Assembly: GCA_945889645.1 (NCBI GenBank)
Contig: CAMDCA010000009.1
Location: 1 to 48,264, forward strand
DNA: 48,264 nucleotides
Reading direction: 5' to 3'
Source of the DNA: Rhizobium sp. Q54
GTDB lineage: Bacteria > Pseudomonadota > Alphaproteobacteria > UBA2966 > CAIVPW01
Part shown: positions 51 through 13,984 of the stretch, piece after piece
How the letters are laid out: every line of letters starts with the position of its first letter
How positions within the stretch are numbered: the first letter of the stretch is position 1
Translations under genes and position numbers: made by a program
The notes under the pieces: model-generated
The model's input: the letters and a program-made list of their open reading frames with translations, nothing else
Database searches by the model: none
Told to the model about the DNA's origin: nothing

Positions 51-1250
51 CTAGCGGCCGAGACCCGGGATCGGGGCGCCGAGGCCCGGAATAGTCGCAC
101 CCGGCGGCGTGAGGCGGCCCGGCAGGCCAGGCACACCCGGAAAACCGCCGGCGCCCGCGCCGGGGCCGGTGGTGGGCGCTGCCTTGGTTTCGGTCAGTTC
201 GGCAAGCAAGCGGTTGAACGCCGGCGCCTTGAACGTCGGCATCTGGAACACCCAGCCGGTCGTCGCGTCGGCGATCTGCTTGACGCGGGCCATGCCGGTG
301 GCGCCGGGAGCGGCGCTGGCCTTGAAGCGGGCCCAGGTGCGGCCATCGATCTCGGCGACTTCGGCGCTGAGGATCAGACCATCGAAGGTCGTGAAGATCA
401 GTTCACGGCTGCCTTCGGGCCACTGCACCATCGAAGCCGGACGCACGTCGTCGAACTGCAGCGAGACGATCGCGGTGGCGACCTGCTTCACGGCGCTGTC
501 GGCGGCCTGAATCTTTTCGTCGCGCGGCACGAGCTGGTAGCGCGACACACCGTTCGGGTCCACTTCCTTCTCGGTGTTGAGAACGAGCTGGCCCTCTTCC
601 TTGACCTGGATGGCCTTGATGTCAGGGCCCGGCACATGGACGATCTGCCGTTCCATCCAGTCGGTGGCGGACGGCGGCAGCACCACAGTGCCACGCACCA
701 GCCACGAGCGGGCCTCGCCCGCAACGCGGAGGTACATGCCGCCGAGCGGATCGAACTGCATGGTGCCGCTGGCACGACCAAGAATGACAGCGGCGAGCCG
801 CTCTCCATTGGCGCCTTCGACTATCACCTCGCGCGAACGCGCAGAGGGCCCCACGTCCTCGACCGCAAGGCTCGGATAGCGCGCCGCATCGCTCGTCTTG
901 GGCTCCAACTTGCGCAAGCTGGCGATGCTACCGATCACGCTACGCACATTGCCGGTGGAAACGGGATAGCCGTATTTGTCGACGTAGCGCCAGACGCCAT
1001 CCTTCTGCTCGATCACCGCAGTCTCAGTTGCGGTGCGATAGGTGATTCTGGTGGCATCGTTGGCGCGGGGCTTTGCGCAGTTTCCATCGGGCGTCACCGG
1101 CACCGCGCAATCGGCGAGCTTCGGGAACATGGGCTCGTCGTAGAGCTGAATGTCGGAGCCAACACGGCTCTCGATGATGGTTGCGACAATGGCGCCGACC
1201 ACCGCAACCGCGGTGATGCCGGCCAGGACGATGAAATTCTTCGGGGTCAT
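51..1250 (-). CDS. DUF4340 domain-containing protein of a Gld-type ABC exporter
   Basis: A 399-residue protein with one N-terminal membrane segment (about residues 7-28) and a long extracytoplasmic region, which fits the DUF4340 family. These proteins are encoded at the end of operons with GldA-, GldF- and GldG-like ABC transporter parts, and their exact role is not known. The start codon overlaps the stop of the GldG-like gene upstream (ATGA), so the two are translationally coupled. The last 45 or so residues are low-complexity Pro/Gly-rich sequence with PGxPG and IPGLG units, unlike the rest of the protein. The start is supported by the overlap and by the membrane anchor beginning a few residues later. 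Confidence 0.88.
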   Translation of the reverse strand: MTPKNFIVLAGITAVAVVGAIVATIIESRVGSDIQLYDEPMFPKLADCAVPVTPDGNCAKPRANDATRITYRTATETAVIEQKDGVWRYVDKYGYPVSTGNVRSVIGSIASLRKLEPKTSDAARYPSLAVEDVGPSARSREVIVEGANGERLAAVILGRASGTMQFDPLGGMYLRVAGEARSWLVRGTVVLPPSATDWMERQIVHVPGPDIKAIQVKEEGQLVLNTEKEVDPNGVSRYQLVPRDEKIQAADSAVKQVATAIVSLQFDDVRPASMVQWPEGSRELIFTTFDGLILSAEVAEIDGRTWARFKASAAPGATGMARVKQIADATTGWVFQMPTFKAPAFNRLLAELTETKAAPTTGPGAGAGGFPGVPGLPGRLTPPGATIPGLGAPIPGLGR

Positions 1251-3172
1251 GCCGTGCGGCCTCCGGCCCGAGCACGGGCGCTGCGCAGGCGCGCGCGCCG
1301 CCAGCTGGCAGCGACCATGCCGAAGGCGACGACCAAGATCGGCACCAGGGCGATGTTGGCAAACTGCAGCTGGGTCTCGAGCGTGTCGATGTCGGCATTC
1401 AATGCGGCGCGAACGTCGCGCAGTTGCTGACGCAGGGTCAGCATCTTGCGATTGAACTCGATGATGCGGCGCTGCTCGTCCGTGCTGAGGAGCTGGAAGG
1501 CAACGTCTTCGCGGTTGAGGGCCTGCAACTGAGCAAGCTGGTTCTGCGTCTCGGCAAGCTCGGCCTCAAGGCGCTGCTCGGTGGCAAAGTACTTGGTGCG
1601 CGCCGCATCCTCGATGCGCTCGACCGTGGTGAACGGACGATGCGACAGGCCGCGGCCGCGCAGGCCGATCAGCGCGCCGCCGCCGGCCAAATTCTCGATC
1701 GCGTTGACGACAAAGTCGCCGTTGTTCGAAACCGGCTGGCCCGTCTGGCCGTTGACAACATGGGAGTCGCCGAGCATGTCGACGTCCGCAACGACGATGA
1801 TATTGACGTTGCCTTCAGCGATCTGCGGCGGCTCCGGCGGCTTGGGGGCGTTCGGATCGGCGTTGGGATCGGTGTTGGCGTTCTGCGCCGGGGCGCCGCT
1901 CGGCCACGCCGTGCGGGCCTTGCCAGTGATACGGACCGCGAGGTTTTGGCGCACGCCGGACGGATCGAACACTTCAAGCAGGCGGCTCGGATCATCGCGG
2001 CGGCGAACGGCCAACGTATCGATCAGCATCGAGTCGCGCGTGCTCTGGATCAGCGGCGTGACGGTCAGGCCGTCGATGCCGGTCTCCTGGATAGCGCCGC
2101 CAGACGAAATGCGCATGAGTCGCAGCTGCGCAGTGATTGCCTCTTCCTGGTTCAGGTTCTCCGGGCGCACCTGCAGCCACGGCACGTACTCGACCACGAC
2201 GCGGGTCGGGCCGCCGAAGCCGGAGACGCGGATCGCCATCGTGCGGTCACCGACGACGCGGTTGGTGGCCATCTGGATGCCCCACCGCTCGAACAGCTCG
2301 GAAATCTCCGAGGTCGGGAACAGGTAGTTCATCCGATTCTGCGGATCGGTCGGCGAATTCTCCGCCAGCGGATCGACGAACACGATCACCGGGCCACCCG
2401 CCAGGGCGTACTGGTCGATGGCATAGCGGGTGCGCTCGCTCAGGCCGGCCGGGTGCACCACCATCAAGACGTCGGCGGTCGGCGGGATGACGTTGGCATC
2501 GTACTTCAGCACGCGCACGTCGTACGACGACTGCAGCTGGCGAATGACCGCGAACGGCGGAACGTTGTTGCCTTCCTGGCCCATGACGCCGACGCCATCG
2601 AGGATGCCGATGATCGGCTTGGCCGGGCGCGCCAGGTTGGCGACCATGCGGGTCAGGTCGTACTCGAGGAACGCCTCGCGCGACGGGTCCATGAACGAGA
2701 TGACCTGGACGTCATCGACCGAGTTGGTCCCGACGAGGCCAAAATAGCCCTGCTCGCCTGCCTTGGTCAGGTTGAACGAGCGCATCTGGAACTGAATGGC
2801 GCGGTCTTCTTCGATCGAGAACGGGATCGGGTCGATGATCTCGATGCGCAGGACGCCGTTGGACAGTTCCTGGTAGGTGCGCAGGAGCTCGGTGACGCGA
2901 TCCGAGTAGACATTCAGGCCCGGCGCCGACTCGAGCAGCGCGGTCGATTGGAACAGGCGCAGCGTGACCGGCTCCGTCAGGCTGCGCAGCACGTTGTTGG
3001 TCGACTGGGTCAGCGTGAAGAGCTTGCCCTGGGTCAGGTCCGAGCGCGCCGAGCCGAATGTCAGGGCGGCGAAGACGTTCACCGACAGGAACAACACAAC
3101 CGCGATCGCGATGGCGATTGCTGAGAGGACCGAGCGATCGGCCTTGTTGATGCGTTGCAGAAGAGCGTCCAT
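1247..3172 (-). CDS. GldG-like ABC transporter auxiliary subunit
   Basis: A 641-residue protein with a membrane segment near the N-terminus (about residues 17-38), a large periplasmic region and a second membrane segment near the C-terminus (about 600-625). The DLTQGKLFTLTQST stretch after the first segment is typical of the GldG family (ABC-type uncharacterised transport system, PF09822), which works with a GldA-type ATPase and a GldF-type permease. In Bacteroidetes these proteins act in gliding. In Proteobacteria the substrate is unknown, so an envelope export or assembly role is inference. It follows the permease gene by 2 bases and overlaps the DUF4340 gene by 4. Confidence 0.88.
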   Translation of the reverse strand: MDALLQRINKADRSVLSAIAIAIAVVLFLSVNVFAALTFGSARSDLTQGKLFTLTQSTNNVLRSLTEPVTLRLFQSTALLESAPGLNVYSDRVTELLRTYQELSNGVLRIEIIDPIPFSIEEDRAIQFQMRSFNLTKAGEQGYFGLVGTNSVDDVQVISFMDPSREAFLEYDLTRMVANLARPAKPIIGILDGVGVMGQEGNNVPPFAVIRQLQSSYDVRVLKYDANVIPPTADVLMVVHPAGLSERTRYAIDQYALAGGPVIVFVDPLAENSPTDPQNRMNYLFPTSEISELFERWGIQMATNRVVGDRTMAIRVSGFGGPTRVVVEYVPWLQVRPENLNQEEAITAQLRLMRISSGGAIQETGIDGLTVTPLIQSTRDSMLIDTLAVRRRDDPSRLLEVFDPSGVRQNLAVRITGKARTAWPSGAPAQNANTDPNADPNAPKPPEPPQIAEGNVNIIVVADVDMLGDSHVVNGQTGQPVSNNGDFVVNAIENLAGGGALIGLRGRGLSHRPFTTVERIEDAARTKYFATEQRLEAELAETQNQLAQLQALNREDVAFQLLSTDEQRRIIEFNRKMLTLRQQLRDVRAALNADIDTLETQLQFANIALVPILVVAFGMVAASWRRARLRSARARAGGRTA

Positions 3173-3174
3173 CG

Positions 3175-3909
3175 CTAGCTAGCCTTCTTGAGCTCGACGA
3201 TCTGCGCGTTGATGAACAGGCAGACCGTGATCATGGACAGGAAGAAGATGATGGCCGGGATCGGCAGCACGCCCTCGGAGATGGTCTGGAAATGGACCAG
3301 GAACGACATCGAGGCGACCATTTCGAGAACGTAGGCCGGCGCCCAGCCGCGGAACAGGCCGAGGACGAGATCGAGGCCGCTCATCAGGAACAGGAAGCTG
3401 GCGGCGGCGCCGATGACGAAGGCGATGACTTGGTTGCGGGTCAGCGCCGAGATGCACGACGCGAGCGCCAGAAGCGCTCCGGCCATCAGCATGCTGCCGA
3501 CGTAGCTGGCGAAGATCACGCCGTTGTCCGGGTCGCCGAGGTAGTTGACCGAAATCCAGATCGGGAACGTCAATCCGAGCGCGATGCCCGTGAACAACCA
3601 CGCGGCGACGAACTTGCCGACCACTGCCTCGCCGGTGGTGACCGGGAGAGTCATGAGCAGTTCGATGGTGCCGGTCTTGCGCTCCTCGGCCCACAACCGC
3701 ATGCCGATCGCCGGGATCAGTACCAGGAACAGCCACGGGTGGAAGCTGAAGAACGACTGCAGATCGGCCTGACCGCGGCCAAAGAAGTCGCCGATGAAGA
3801 ACGTCACCGCGCCGGTGCCGGCGAGGAAGATGACGATGAAGACGTAAGCAAGCGGCGTCGAGAAGTAGGCCGACAGTTCGCGCTTGGCGATGATCCAGAC
3901 GTTTCTCAT
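3175..3909 (-). CDS. ABC-2 type transporter permease (GldF-like)
   Basis: A 244-residue polytopic membrane protein with about six hydrophobic segments, typical of an ABC-2 family permease. The N-terminus (VWIIAKRELSAYFSTPLAYV) matches the cytosolic start and first membrane segment of the family. EERKTGTIELLMTLPVT, after the second segment, is the conserved ABC-2 loop that contacts the ATPase. It would form the inner-membrane channel for the ATPase encoded just upstream, whose last codons overlap this start by 4 bases. The substrate cannot be told from sequence. Confidence 0.93.
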   Translation of the reverse strand: MRNVWIIAKRELSAYFSTPLAYVFIVIFLAGTGAVTFFIGDFFGRGQADLQSFFSFHPWLFLVLIPAIGMRLWAEERKTGTIELLMTLPVTTGEAVVGKFVAAWLFTGIALGLTFPIWISVNYLGDPDNGVIFASYVGSMLMAGALLALASCISALTRNQVIAFVIGAAASFLFLMSGLDLVLGLFRGWAPAYVLEMVASMSFLVHFQTISEGVLPIPAIIFFLSMITVCLFINAQIVELKKAS

Positions 3910-4874
3910 CGACGGGCCACCAGGATCTGCTCGCGATCGACCGTCATTTGGCGGAAGACCTCATCGAGCTTGCCGCTTTCGGTATGCATCTCGTCGACTT
4001 CGATGCCGTTCTGGCGAACGGCAATGCCGACCTCGTCGGCGATGAAGCGGCCGTCGCGCGGCACCACGGAGAGCGAAACGTGCCCGCCCTGGGGCGCGCC
4101 GGTATCGACGCTGGCAACATGGGTGATGGCGCGGAGAATCTTGGCCGCCTTCGGCGCCGCGTCGGTGCGCACGCGCAGGACTACGCTGTTGTGGAACTTG
4201 GAGCGCGCATGCAACTCGGCGGGCGTGCCGTTCGAGACGACGCGGCCGCGGTCGATGATGACAGCCCGGTCGCACACTGCATCGACCTCTTCGAGGATGT
4301 GCGTCGAAATGATGATGGCCTTGTCCTTGCCGAGCTCGCGGATGAGCTCACGGACGTGGTGCTTCTGGTTCGGATCGAGACCGTCGGTCGGCTCGTCGAG
4401 GATCAGCACGTCCGGGTCGTGCAGAATCGCCTGGGCGAAACCGACGCGGCGCTTGAAGCCCTTCGAGAGCGTTTCGACGCGCTGGTACAGCACCTGCTCC
4501 AGACCCATGCGCTCGATCGAATACAGGATGCGCTGTCGGCGCTTGGGGCCGTGCAACTGCCGGATGGCGGCGATGAACTCGAGGAACGAGTAAACCGTCA
4601 TGTCGCCGTAGAGCGGCGCGCCTTCGGGCAGGAAGCCGATGCGGCGCTTGACCTCGACCGGCTCTTTTTGGATGTCGTGGCCGAGCACGCGCGCGGTGCC
4701 GGAGGTCGGAGGCAGGTAGCCGGTGATGACGCGCATCGTCGTCGACTTGCCAGCACCGTTGGGGCCAAGGAAGCCCATGACGACGCCACGCGCGACGGAG
4801 AAGCTGACATCGTCCACAGCGACGATCGCCCCGAATCGCTTGCTCAAGGATTCGACTTCGATGAGATCCGACAT
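3906..4874 (-). CDS. ABC transporter ATP-binding protein (GldA-like)
   Basis: A 322-residue ATPase and the first gene of the four-gene operon. Walker A is GPNGAGKST (about residues 38-46), the signature region is LSKGFKRRVGFAQAI, and Walker B with the catalytic Glu is VLILDEPTDGLDP. The switch His lies in IISTHILEEV. The C-terminal third is the extra domain found in GldA/NatA-type ATPases. It supplies energy to the permease encoded directly downstream. No other operon gene lies upstream, so the promoter should be in the gap before 4874, although I could not pick a convincing one. Confidence 0.94.
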   Translation of the reverse strand: MSDLIEVESLSKRFGAIVAVDDVSFSVARGVVMGFLGPNGAGKSTTMRVITGYLPPTSGTARVLGHDIQKEPVEVKRRIGFLPEGAPLYGDMTVYSFLEFIAAIRQLHGPKRRQRILYSIERMGLEQVLYQRVETLSKGFKRRVGFAQAILHDPDVLILDEPTDGLDPNQKHHVRELIRELGKDKAIIISTHILEEVDAVCDRAVIIDRGRVVSNGTPAELHARSKFHNSVVLRVRTDAAPKAAKILRAITHVASVDTGAPQGGHVSLSVVPRDGRFIADEVGIAVRQNGIEVDEMHTESGKLDEVFRQMTVDREQILVARR

Positions 4875-10458: not shown

Positions 10459-10878
10459 TCAGCCCTGGCTGCGCTTCAGCCGGTTCTGGGTGAGGGCGAT
10501 CTCATCCATTTCCAGGGTCTCGACGCGGGCCGCCTCGGCGTTCCTGCGCACCTGGTTGCGCTCCTCGGCGATCTCGTACTTGCGCATCTCACGCCACGCG
10601 GCGTTGACCTCGTCGCGCGCCAACTCCATGCGCCTCTCGACCTCCGCCATCGAACGCCTGAGGTTCTCCCGGCGTTGGATGACTGCCTTGGCGTAGCCGG
10701 AATAGGTCCAGCCGGTCTCCATTGTCTTGGCAGTCTGCTGCTCACGGCCGAGTTCGGCCTCGAGTTCCGTCGCCTGGCGGGCGAGGTCCGCGCGCAGGCC
10801 CTGCAAGGCGGCCAACGCGCGGCGTTTCTCCTCGAGTCGCCACTTGTAGAGACGGATCAGGGACTCAAGAGTCTTCAT
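10459..10878 (-). CDS. fliJ: Flagellar export protein FliJ
   Basis: A 139-residue, almost wholly helical and highly charged protein with heptad-like spacing throughout, as in the antiparallel coiled coil of FliJ. In the flagellar export machine FliJ sits in the centre of the FliI hexamer and helps transfer chaperones and couple the proton motive force through FlhA. Sequence identity is low across the family, so the call leans on its position directly after fliI, with a 4-base ATGA overlap, and on its length. Confidence 0.85.
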   Translation of the reverse strand: MKTLESLIRLYKWRLEEKRRALAALQGLRADLARQATELEAELGREQQTAKTMETGWTYSGYAKAVIQRRENLRRSMAEVERRMELARDEVNAAWREMRKYEIAEERNQVRRNAEAARVETLEMDEIALTQNRLKRSQG

Positions 10879-12215
10879 TTCTTAGCCGGTGCCGCCGGTG
10901 CCTTGACCGGGCCGAGTAGCTTGGCGAGCGCGGCATAGCCGGCCGCCAACTCGGCACGCTCGGCCTTCCCTTGGCCAAGGAACTTCTCGAGTCCGTCGCG
11001 GTGCTTGATCGCTTCGTCGATGGCGGGATCCGAGCCGGCGCGATAGGCGCCGAGGCGAATCATGTCGGCCATTTCCTCATAGGTCGCGACGAGGCCACGC
11101 GCGCGCGCCACCACGTCGTTCTCTTCCTTGGTGTTGCAATCGGGCATCGAGCGCGAGATAGAGCGAAGAATGTTGATCGGCGGATAGCGGCCGCGCTCGG
11201 CGATCGAACGATCAAGCACGATGTGCCCGTCGAGAATACCGCGCACTGCGTCGGCGACCGGTTCGTTGTGGTCATCGCCTTCGACCAGCACGGTGAACAA
11301 CCCGGTGATGGTGCCTTCGTTGGTCCCGGTGCCGGCGCGCTCCAGCAGGCGCGGCAACTCGTAGAACACCGTCGGCGTGTAGCCTTTGCTGGCCGGCGGC
11401 TCGCCGCCCGACAATCCGATCTCACGCTGGGCCATAGCGAAGCGCGTGATCGAATCGATCATGCACAGCACGTTCTTGCCCTGGTCGCGGAAGTATTCGG
11501 CGATGGCGAGGGTCATGTACGCCGCCTGGCGCCGCATCAGGGCCGACTCGTCCCCGGTGGCGACGACGATGACGCTGCGCTTCAGGCCTTCGGGCCCAAG
11601 GTAGTCCTCGATGAATTCCTTCACCTCGCGGCCGCGCTCACCCACCAGACCAATCACCGAGACGTCGCACGCGGCGTACTTGGCCATCATCGACAGCAGC
11701 ACCGACTTGCCGATGCCGGAGCCGGCGAAGATGCCCATGCGCTGGCCGAGGCACACCGTGGTGAACGTATTGATGGAGCGCACGCCAAGATCGATCTTGG
11801 CGCCAAGGCGGCGGCGCTTGGCCGCTACCGGCGCCGAGGCGCGCAGCGCGAATCCTTTGGGGCCTTGCGGCAACGGCGCGCCGCCATCGATCGGCTGGCC
11901 GAGCGCATCGACGATGCGGCCGAGCCACGTGCCGTGCGGATAGACCGCAGCGTCCTGATCCGCGACCACCGTCTTGGCGCCGAGGCCAATACCGTCGAGC
12001 GAGCTGAACGGCATCACGAGTGCGTGGCCGTCGCGGAAACCGACGACTTCGCCTGCCACGACACGATTGTGACGAGCTGACACGCCGACGCGCGTTCCAA
12101 TGCTGACGGAGCCGAACAAGCCGCCGACCTGAACGAGGAGGCCTTGGATGCCCGCAACCCGGCCGAACGTGCGGTGTTCGGGCAGGCGATCGAGCTCGGA
12201 GATGAGGCTTTCCAT
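10875..12215 (-). CDS. fliI: Flagellum-specific ATP synthase FliI
   Basis: 446 residues. Walker A is AGSGIGKS (residues 164-171), and the Walker B strand is VLCMIDSITRFAMAQREI, typical of FliI and type III secretion ATPases. GEPPASKGYTPTVF and the LVEGDDHNEPVADAVRGILDGH loop separate it from F1 beta subunits. It powers chaperone-substrate release at the flagellar export gate. It is read away from ctrA, and the intergenic region contains a perfect CtrA box, which fits CtrA control of early flagellar genes in other Alphaproteobacteria. No other flagellar structural genes are in the window. Confidence 0.96.
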   Translation of the reverse strand: MESLISELDRLPEHRTFGRVAGIQGLLVQVGGLFGSVSIGTRVGVSARHNRVVAGEVVGFRDGHALVMPFSSLDGIGLGAKTVVADQDAAVYPHGTWLGRIVDALGQPIDGGAPLPQGPKGFALRASAPVAAKRRRLGAKIDLGVRSINTFTTVCLGQRMGIFAGSGIGKSVLLSMMAKYAACDVSVIGLVGERGREVKEFIEDYLGPEGLKRSVIVVATGDESALMRRQAAYMTLAIAEYFRDQGKNVLCMIDSITRFAMAQREIGLSGGEPPASKGYTPTVFYELPRLLERAGTGTNEGTITGLFTVLVEGDDHNEPVADAVRGILDGHIVLDRSIAERGRYPPINILRSISRSMPDCNTKEENDVVARARGLVATYEEMADMIRLGAYRAGSDPAIDEAIKHRDGLEKFLGQGKAERAELAAGYAALAKLLGPVKAPAAPAKK

Positions 12216-12262
12216 TGCCTGGCGACCCTTTGCGAGTTGTTCTCCAACCTCGCGCGTCAGCC

Positions 12263-12283
12263 TTAACGGGCAGTTAAAGACTC
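12263..12283. promoter_or_regulatory. CtrA box (TTAA-N7-TTAA) next to a GANTC site
   Basis: TTAA at 12263-12266 and TTAA at 12274-12277 are separated by exactly seven bases, matching the CtrA consensus first defined in Caulobacter. GACTC at 12279-12283, two bases on, is a CcrM-type GANTC site. TTAA is rare in DNA of this composition. The site is 48 bases upstream of fliI and 170 bases upstream of ctrA, so it could serve either or both. CtrA autoregulation with GANTC methylation is known for Caulobacter ctrA; applying it here is inference. Confidence 0.75.
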
Positions 12284-12299
12284 TGCCTCTAACCTTAGT

Positions 12300-12393
12300 G
12301 GTACTTCAGAGAGTACCTCTTTGGAGGAAATGGCCTACCCCATGGTGCAAGGGGAAATCCCTATGGTATGGTGCCATTAACGATGATTAATGG
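12300..12393 (+). promoter_or_regulatory. ctrA upstream region with two exact inverted repeats
   Basis: GGTACT (12300-12305) and AGTACC (12312-12317) flank six bases. CCATTAA (12374-12380) and TTAATGG (12387-12393) flank six bases, ending 53 bases before the ctrA ATG. The region is richer in A+T than its surroundings. The second repeat carries two inverted TTAA cores spaced like half-sites but at six bases, so it is not a standard CtrA box. These may be operator sites or RNA hairpins in the ctrA leader; I cannot tell which. Confidence 0.45.
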
Positions 12394-12446
12394 CCCGCCC
12401 CCGGGGGAACCAAGCGGTGGGGGCGGTCGCAACGGAGGGGATGCCG

Positions 12447-13148
12447 ATGCGCGTGCTGCTCGTTGAAGATGATCCGGTTACCGCCCGCAGCGTCGAGAAG
12501 ATGCTGACCGGCGAAGGATTCAACGTCTACACGACGGACCTTGACGAAGAAGGTCTCGATCTCGGCAAGCTCTACGACTACGACATCATCGTGCTCGACC
12601 TGAACCTCCCCGACATGCATGGGTACGAGGTTCTCAAGCGCTTGCGGAACTCCAAGGTCCGCACACCGATCCTGATTCTCTCTGGCGACTCCGAGCCCGA
12701 CGACAAGGTTAAGGGCCTGGTCTTTGGCGCCGACGACTACCTGACGAAGCCGTTCAACAAGGCCGAACTGGTTGCGCGCCTGCACGCCATCGTGCGCCGC
12801 TCCAAGGGTCACGCCGAGTCGGTGATCAGTATCGGCAAGCTGCAGGTCAATCTCGACGCGCACACGGTCGAAGCCGCCGGCATCCCGGTGCACTTGACCG
12901 GCAAGGAATACAGCGTGCTCGAACTGCTCGCGCTGCGCAAAGGCACGACGCTGACCAAGGAGATGTTCCTCAATCATCTCTACGGCGGCATGGACGAGCC
13001 AGAGCTCAAGATCATCGACGTGTTCGTGTGCAAGCTGCGCAAGAAGCTCGCCTCGGCGACCGGCGGCGACCACTACATCGAGACGGTGTGGGGCCGCGGC
13101 TACGTACTGCGCGATCCCGCCGGCCAAGCCGCAATCCACGCCGCCTGA
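12447..13148 (+). CDS. ctrA: Cell-cycle master response regulator CtrA
   Basis: 233 residues: receiver domain (about 1-118) with the acidic pair at the N-terminus, phospho-acceptor Asp51 ([11 protein letters not shown]) and Lys101 (DDYLTKPF), then an OmpR-type winged-helix domain (about 125-220). [18 protein letters not shown] and [20 protein letters not shown] are characteristic of CtrA. The C-terminus ends in Ala-Ala, the residues recognised for ClpXP proteolysis of CtrA in Caulobacter. The ATG at 12447 lies 6 bases after GGAGGGG; the ATG at 12441 touches that sequence and is less likely. It is transcribed away from fliI and lies 215 bases from convergent chpT, its probable phosphodonor. 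Confidence 0.97.
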
Positions 13149-13363: not shown

Positions 13364-13984
13364 TCAGTTCGGCGCGACGACCACCGACAGCGTAAGCGTG
13401 TCCGGCGCCGTCTCAACCGACACCACCGACCCCACCGACCGCGCCAGCGCCCCGGCGTAATACGGCTGCACCAAGCGCGCATTGAGGGCCGCATCGGCCC
13501 CCGCGATGGCGGCCTTGCGTTCGTCCGCCATGGTCGCGCCGGTCCCGGTCGCCGTGATCTTGAGCGTCAATTCGTCGAGCCCGACCAAGACCGTGCCGCC
13601 GCGCGGCAACGCCTCGGAGGCGACGAGCACCAGGTTGAGCGCCAGCTTAACGACCGGTTGGGGCGCGTCGCGCGCCGCGGTCACCGGCCAGTCGATCCTC
13701 ACCTTGCGGCCGTCAAAGTAGGCGAGCGTCTTGTCCCGCGCTTCACCCAGCGGCTGGCGCACGCCGAGACCCCCGGCGGCGCCGAAGGCAAGGCGGAAGA
13801 ACTCCAGCCGCCGCACGGTTTCGCGGGCCGAGAACTCCAAGAGTTCGAGAGCGCCGGAATCGACTCTCTTGGACTCCTCGCGCAGCATTTCGATGCCGTT
13901 GCCGACCGCTCCGGCCGAGGCGGCAAGGTCGTGCATCAACCGCGACACAAGCAGGGATGCGAGCGAGAGCTCGTCGTGAGACAT
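13364..13984 (-). CDS. chpT: ChpT-type histidine phosphotransferase
   Basis: 206 residues. The N-terminal helical part resembles a histidine-kinase dimerisation domain with the phospho-acceptor His18 in SRLMHDLAASAGAVGNGIEML. The C-terminal part is a degenerate ATPase-like fold without the nucleotide-binding motifs, as in Caulobacter ChpT (HPTransfase family). ChpT carries phosphate from the hybrid kinase CckA to CtrA and CpdR. Here it converges with ctrA, so the phosphotransferase and its target regulator are neighbours. It is followed upstream by the ModE-like regulator, 12 bases away on the same strand. Confidence 0.93.
   Translation of the reverse strand: MSHDELSLASLLVSRLMHDLAASAGAVGNGIEMLREESKRVDSGALELLEFSARETVRRLEFFRLAFGAAGGLGVRQPLGEARDKTLAYFDGRKVRIDWPVTAARDAPQPVVKLALNLVLVASEALPRGGTVLVGLDELTLKITATGTGATMADERKAAIAGADAALNARLVQPYYAGALARSVGSVVSVETAPDTLTLSVVVAPN

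Follow-up and report, generated by a model that had tools for sequence, protein, structure and literature searches.

A conserved candidate CtrA box in the ctrA-fliI spacer appears to serve fliI, with a second putative site accompanying ctrA

Results

Layout of the fliI/ctrA spacer

In the window, by which we mean the whole stretch of 48,264 nucleotides analysed, fliI and ctrA diverge from a 231-bp spacer. Both gene assignments lie above the curated cut-offs, which confirms an earlier placement of the site between ctrA and a flagellar export operon. The features of the locus are the following.

10459..10878, minus strand: fliJ-like gene after fliI (TIGR02473, 37.1 bits, under the cut-off of 50.45)
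10875..12215, minus strand: fliI, flagellar export ATPase (NCBIfam TIGR03498, 638 bits, cut-off 587)
near 12239, minus strand: predicted fliI transcript start, from the phasing rule described below
12246..12251, minus strand: GAGGTT, predicted fliI -10-like element (A and T at offsets 27 and 31, counted from the box start)
12263..12277, minus strand: putative CtrA box, TTAAC-TGCCCG-TTAA on the fliI strand, orthologous to TTTAC-N6-TTAA of relatives
12279..12283, no strand assigned: GACTC (GANTC), possible CcrM site, not conserved in relatives
12290..12295, plus strand: TAACCT, -10-like on the ctrA strand (A at offset 28 from the box)
12362..12372, plus strand: TATGGTATGGT, -10-like element of the predicted ctrA promoter, kept in L001-L003 and partly in L004 and L005
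12377..12390, plus strand: TTAA-N6-TTAA, second putative CtrA site, within the palindrome 12373-12394 and 70 bp upstream of ctrA
12447..13148 (alternative start 12441), plus strand: ctrA (NF045991, 402 bits, cut-off 350)
13364..13984, minus strand: chpT-like histidine phosphotransferase gene, convergent with ctrA (NF046018, 139.6 bits, under the cut-off of 240)

The TTAA-N7-TTAA box at 12263-12277 (TTAACGGGCAGTTAA) has GACTC one base off on its ctrA side. A preliminary description had reported both motifs at these positions; the observation is correct, and the box is non-random. It is the only TTAA-N7-TTAA of the window, and 100 dinucleotide shuffles gave none; the 2.33-Mb draft genome has four such sites and a single match to the reversed control pattern. 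Just 12 TTAA occur in the whole 48-kb window (67% GC), and four of these fall within the spacer, where they form two pairs: the N7 box and an N6 pair at 12377-12390 that had been missed before. Judging by its sequence and by the presence of a ctrA orthologue, the box does look like an activating-type CtrA box, as had been proposed, and it is a sound candidate regulatory element.

A consensus scan for sigma-70 promoters and terminators over 12100-12560 gave no match, and an Rfam search of 12000-12700 (E up to 1) was likewise empty. A small ORF at 12330-12380 (16 codons, behind GGAGG) was rejected, its ATG being missing in aligned relatives. The ctrA leader contains an inverted repeat, CCGCCCCC/GGGGGCGG (12395-12426), partly kept in congeners. 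Elsewhere in the window (1247-4874), three genes resemble a GldA/GldF/GldG ABC transporter, with matches under the curated cut-offs.

Loci compared

The comparison set consisted of 30 ctrA loci found by searching 61 genomes, 80 named loci and two further stretches. Among the 112 ctrA loci retained, fliI is divergent in 38, or in 37 once the duplicate L035 is removed; CtrA of L035 is 96% identical to that of the window, and records titled as rhizobia reach at most 80%. A further test set comprised 62 fliI loci among 153 genomes with a match, namely 22 taken from the best matches and 40 plus-strand loci picked for a safe distance from the contig start. Divergent ctrA was present within 700 bp in 54 of the 62, and some of these genomes belong to the same genera as the first 37-spacer set.

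Orthologues of ctrA and fliI are both missing from five of the 15 order genomes (G005, G010, G012, G013 and G014), which hold weak paralogues only; this suggests a joint loss of CtrA and flagella. In the congener G002, ctrA is cut down to residues 140-233 (L120, G002:C78, 2891-3253) and stands in a different context, with mnmA and an epimerase-like stretch upstream, as a result of deletion, rearrangement or an assembly fault. No fliI orthologue was found in the G002 genome.

The box is phased towards fliI

When the window is aligned with four family members, the box matches TTTAC-N6-TTAA on the fliI strand. This pattern is found on the fliI strand in 22 of the 37 divergent spacers and on the ctrA strand in two; 500 dinucleotide-shuffle sets of the same spacers averaged 0.058 and never exceeded 2. 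Any other TTTAC-TTAA spacing from N0 to N15 occurs on the fliI strand in at most one spacer each. Together with the TTAAC version of the window, these 22 sites give 23 anchored boxes. Counting from the box start, all 23 are accompanied on the fliI strand by a -10-like A-N3-T, at offset 27 in 15 cases and at offset 28 in eight, and the background at other offsets is about one per offset. The window's own -10-like GAGGTT does not have the CA start seen in most relatives. If the A is taken as -11, the box would span about -38 to -24 of the fliI start; its 5' end, as deduced from the A-N3-T offset relative to a predicted start, would fall near the -39 to -35 expected of an activating full site.

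Since this rule was both found and counted in the same 23 sequences, we used further sets as independent tests: the boxes of the genus, fliI of the family member G007, and the 54 further spacers. In the latter, TTTAC-N6-TTAA is present in 17 and correctly phased in 16 of them; for the wider TTWAC-N6-TTAA, 22 of 25 spacers are in phase and three break the rule. A fliI-strand TTWAC-N6-TTAA (in the first set, that or the TTTAC form) is absent from 14 of the 37 first and 29 of the 54 further spacers, and no such box was found within 300 bp of five other fliI genes (L146-L150), of which L147 adjoins ctrA and L146 a gene 47% CtrA-like.

Neither is the pattern exclusive to fliI. A rule by which TTTAC-N6-TTAA always goes with fliI had to be rejected, because it also stands upstream of ctrA genes without a divergent fliI: of 72 such loci, 17 have it directed away from the gene and 15 directed towards it, and its use in both orientations marks it as a general CtrA-type variant. 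The loci with the outward orientation are mostly records titled as rhizobia and those with the inward one mostly records titled as sphingomonads.

The preliminary description had also proposed that one site could set both directions at once. In full, this explanation has one CtrA dimer at 12263-12277 driving or repressing both fliI and a distal ctrA promoter, with GACTC sensing replication via CcrM. It could draw on the box being an inverted repeat in the window species, on TAACCT at offset 28, which is the sole hint in the window of box use towards ctrA, and on TAAGGT or TAGGGT at offset 27 on the ctrA strand of two congeners. A shared site also has a precedent in R. sphaeroides fliL2p-fliF2p (PMC6180460). 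However, only four of the 23 boxes (L001, L002, L003 and L050) have a ctrA-strand A-N3-T at offset 27 or 28, as opposed to all 23 on the fliI strand, so that the comparison lends no support to a two-way switch as a conserved design. The arrangement in G007 argues against a shared site as well. There fliI lies 9.4 kb from ctrA, and the box TTTACCCGCCCTTAA, in phase and starting 54 bp upstream, has stayed with fliI, whereas ctrA retains TTAA-N6-TTAA only.

A second site accompanies ctrA

Each gene has, in fact, its own CtrA-like site, and in G007 each element stays with its own gene. All six family loci carry the proximal TTAA-N6-TTAA, 56-73 bp ahead of ctrA, and 12377-12390 is the better conserved of the spacer's two pairs. 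It lies in a block (12336-12402) where 60 of 67 positions are identical to each of two congeners, themselves matching each other fully there; over the entire spacer, identity to these two is 157/231 and 155/231. TATGGT or TATGAT directly precedes the proximal pair in five of the six family loci, and TATGGTATGGT may accordingly be read as part of a ctrA promoter. With the -10 placed at TATGGT/TATGAT, the proximal pair would overlie the ctrA transcript start.

TTAA-N6-TTAA is reported as a CtrA site at podJ P1, and in Caulobacter CtrA sites over the -10 region repress (PMC4287350). In R. sphaeroides, half-sites 6 bp apart are reported to be functional (PMC6180460). From its position, we infer that the proximal site may be a CtrA repressor site for ctrA.

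In the window genome and the four family members, the two sites are 114, 115, 115, 138 and 75 bp apart from start to start, or 10.9, 11.0, 11.0, 13.1 and 7.1 turns of 10.5 bp, each near a whole number. A bolder and, in our view, unlikely reading is that both sites cooperate on one helix face, where such spacing could allow a CtrA-CtrA contact or a loop linking fliI to the autoregulation of ctrA; in this genus, the distal box might also drive ctrA without GcrA.

GANTC, CcrM and GcrA

The genome does encode the CcrM homologue that the preliminary description had advised looking for. It is 375 aa long, with PF01555 and PF18755 both above cut-off, and scores 591 bits against NF050803, a Caulobacter-based model with a higher cut-off of 830. 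A RAMA (CcrM-type) match is present in 13 of the 15 order genomes. At Caulobacter ctrA P1, GANTC at about -28/-29 is read through GcrA (PMC4287350, PMC8116508). A search at E up to 0.001 detected GcrA in none of the 15 order genomes, drafts included, and recovered the Caulobacter control. In a loose search (E up to 10), nothing in eight order genomes reaches 15 bits, compared with 171.7 bits for a class member. The order drafts are incomplete, yet an assembly gap is unlikely to account for the absence of GcrA from all 15.

The preliminary description had suggested looking for the same pair of motifs in sister genomes. The box is kept there, as TTTAC-N6-TTAA at fliI, but none of the five other family loci has GACTC at the box position; the spacers of congeners L002 and L003 contain no GANTC, and L004 has it in other places. 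Within 20 bp of the box, GANTC occurs in just seven of the 23 spacers, at scattered positions. Since 24 of the 37 fliI/ctrA spacers hold at least one GANTC somewhere and the window has 121 against 201 expected, a GANTC beside the box is weak evidence. The literature bears on the same point: GANTC within 300 bp upstream of ctrA is reported for 65% of the promoters in Rhodospirillales and 50% of those in Rhizobiales (PMC8116508), a study of order representatives found ctrA under GcrA control in Caulobacterales and Sphingomonadales alone (PMC7987155), and another concluded that conservation of the DnaA-GcrA-CtrA circuit is not class-wide (PMC2877005).

With GACTC not conserved and GcrA undetected in the order, the idea that GANTC methylation times ctrA as in Caulobacter finds no support here. 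The two-way switch set out above gains from the CcrM homologue but is at odds with the GANTC-free spacers of L002 and L003, the displaced GANTC of L004 and the lack of GcrA, and on the whole it seems quite unlikely. Within the genus a shared, methylation-timed switch, though unlikely, keeps a small probability, because three of its four loci show a ctrA-strand -10-like element as well; a two-way use of the box special to the window species is likewise conceivable. Another way to give GACTC a role would be a GcrA-independent, methylation-sensitive and species-specific site with an effect on CtrA or on RNA polymerase at the distal box. That a single base separates it from the ctrA-side end of the box and that a CcrM homologue is present would be in line with this, but the missing GACTC in the other family loci and the scatter of GANTC around the 23 boxes make it very improbable. 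Most likely, GACTC is a chance neighbour of the box.

Other box sites in the genome and the genus

Besides the box, TTAA-N7-TTAA occurs at three places in the genome: close to kdsD, to a gene for a PIG3-type quinone oxidoreductase and to one for a type I secretion ABC transporter. As these neighbours are not a flagellar set, a regulon based on perfect boxes alone was rejected. It is the TTWAC form alone that adds flgB and fliX in the window's genus, where TTWAC-N6-TTAA occurs at only three to six sites per genome (each place counted once). The proximal boxes of flgB in the genus are in phase in three of three cases and those of fliX in three of four. At the kdsD, quinone oxidoreductase, type I secretion and lytic-transglycosylase-like sites there is no fit at 27 or 28; the kdsD boxes retain the phased A, not the T.

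In four congeners (L123, L131, L132 and L143), TTTAC-N6-TTAA stands between divergent flgI and fliX-dksA, with fliX-ward phase in three; the domains of these neighbours were named in L131 only. Upstream of kdsD (SIS and CBS domains), in the rnd-kdsD spacer, a TTAAC-N5-GTTAA inverted repeat is found in all five genus genomes (L126-L129 and L135), and a CtrA link to Kdo/LPS synthesis is possible. In two congeners (L139 1501-1515, L144 1501-1515), TTAACCACCCATTAA precedes a type I secretion ABC transporter gene, and a similar pair stands before a PIG3 quinone oxidoreductase gene in L133 and L142.

CtrA might not be the protein that binds these TTAA pairs. A regulator with a similar motif, such as another member of the OmpR family, or MucR/SciP together with CtrA, could do so: the CtrA query has 24 matches in G000 (E up to 0.001), which means many related regulators, and MucR is reported to occupy CtrA target promoters and SciP to repress them (PMC4287350). 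Yet the CtrA consensus is a TTAA pair with a spacing of 7 (PMC4287350), the site adjoins a flagellar gene next to ctrA, ctrA and fliI are both absent from five of the 15 order genomes, and SciP was not found in G000. Taken together, this alternative is improbable. SciP (PF06627) is present in the family relatives G003, G004 and G007, and its absence from G000 refers to a draft that is 95% complete.

Discussion

Our comparison of sequences indicates that the box at 12263-12277 would be a conserved on-switch of fliI and not a methylation-timed switch for both genes. The spacer contains two elements; both are conserved, the distal one is phased towards fliI, and the two part company where the genes lie apart. 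The arrangement that in our opinion quite probably underlies this is two CtrA sites, one per gene, with the distal box activating fliI and the proximal pair adjusting ctrA. Phosphorylated CtrA, bound at about -38 to -24 relative to the start of the fliI transcript, would activate fliI(-fliJ) via the -10-like element at 12246-12251. The proximal TTAA-N6-TTAA, just downstream of TATGGT, would let CtrA adjust its own transcription, repression being the more likely direction. CtrA binding, fliI activation and ctrA autorepression are what we infer from these sequence patterns.

If this is the case, several consequences follow. The lineage of the window, represented by drafts only, would join a group in which CtrA looks mainly like a flagellar regulator, because ctrA is divergent to fliI and five of 15 order genomes lack the two genes jointly. 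The phasing also amounts to a simple rule that can be tested on CtrA-activated fliI promoters throughout the class. Finally, the Caulobacter GcrA/CcrM timing model should not be extended to all genomes with GANTC sites, given that 13 of the 15 order genomes have a CcrM-type gene and GcrA was detected in none.

Comparison with known systems

No published account of this conserved ctrA-fliI control region was found in the literature searched, which was partial in coverage. A close likeness is R. sphaeroides flgB2p-fliI2p (PMC6180460), also a divergent pair that includes fliI and has two independent CtrA sites. The deduced element positions are alike too: in CtrA promoters of that organism the left element lies near -35, the right one at -27/-28, and the A at -11 is invariant (PMC6180460). 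The partner of fliI, however, is ctrA here and flgB there, and the spacer is 231 bp here and short there; for the window locus, the likeness is one of sequence. R. sphaeroides fliL2p-fliF2p (PMC6180460) similarly consists of divergent flagellar promoters with CtrA, but one site serves both genes there, whereas across the window locus and its relatives the phasing to a -10 is regular on one strand only. Caulobacter ctrA, with its promoters P1, P2 and P3 (PMC4287350, PMC8116508), likewise has CtrA sites in the ctrA control region. The deduced position of our box, about -38 to -24, would match the full activating CtrA site at -39 of Caulobacter ctrA P2 (PMC4287350). In contrast to ctrA P1, GcrA is not detected here, GANTC is not conserved, and the distal box would serve fliI.
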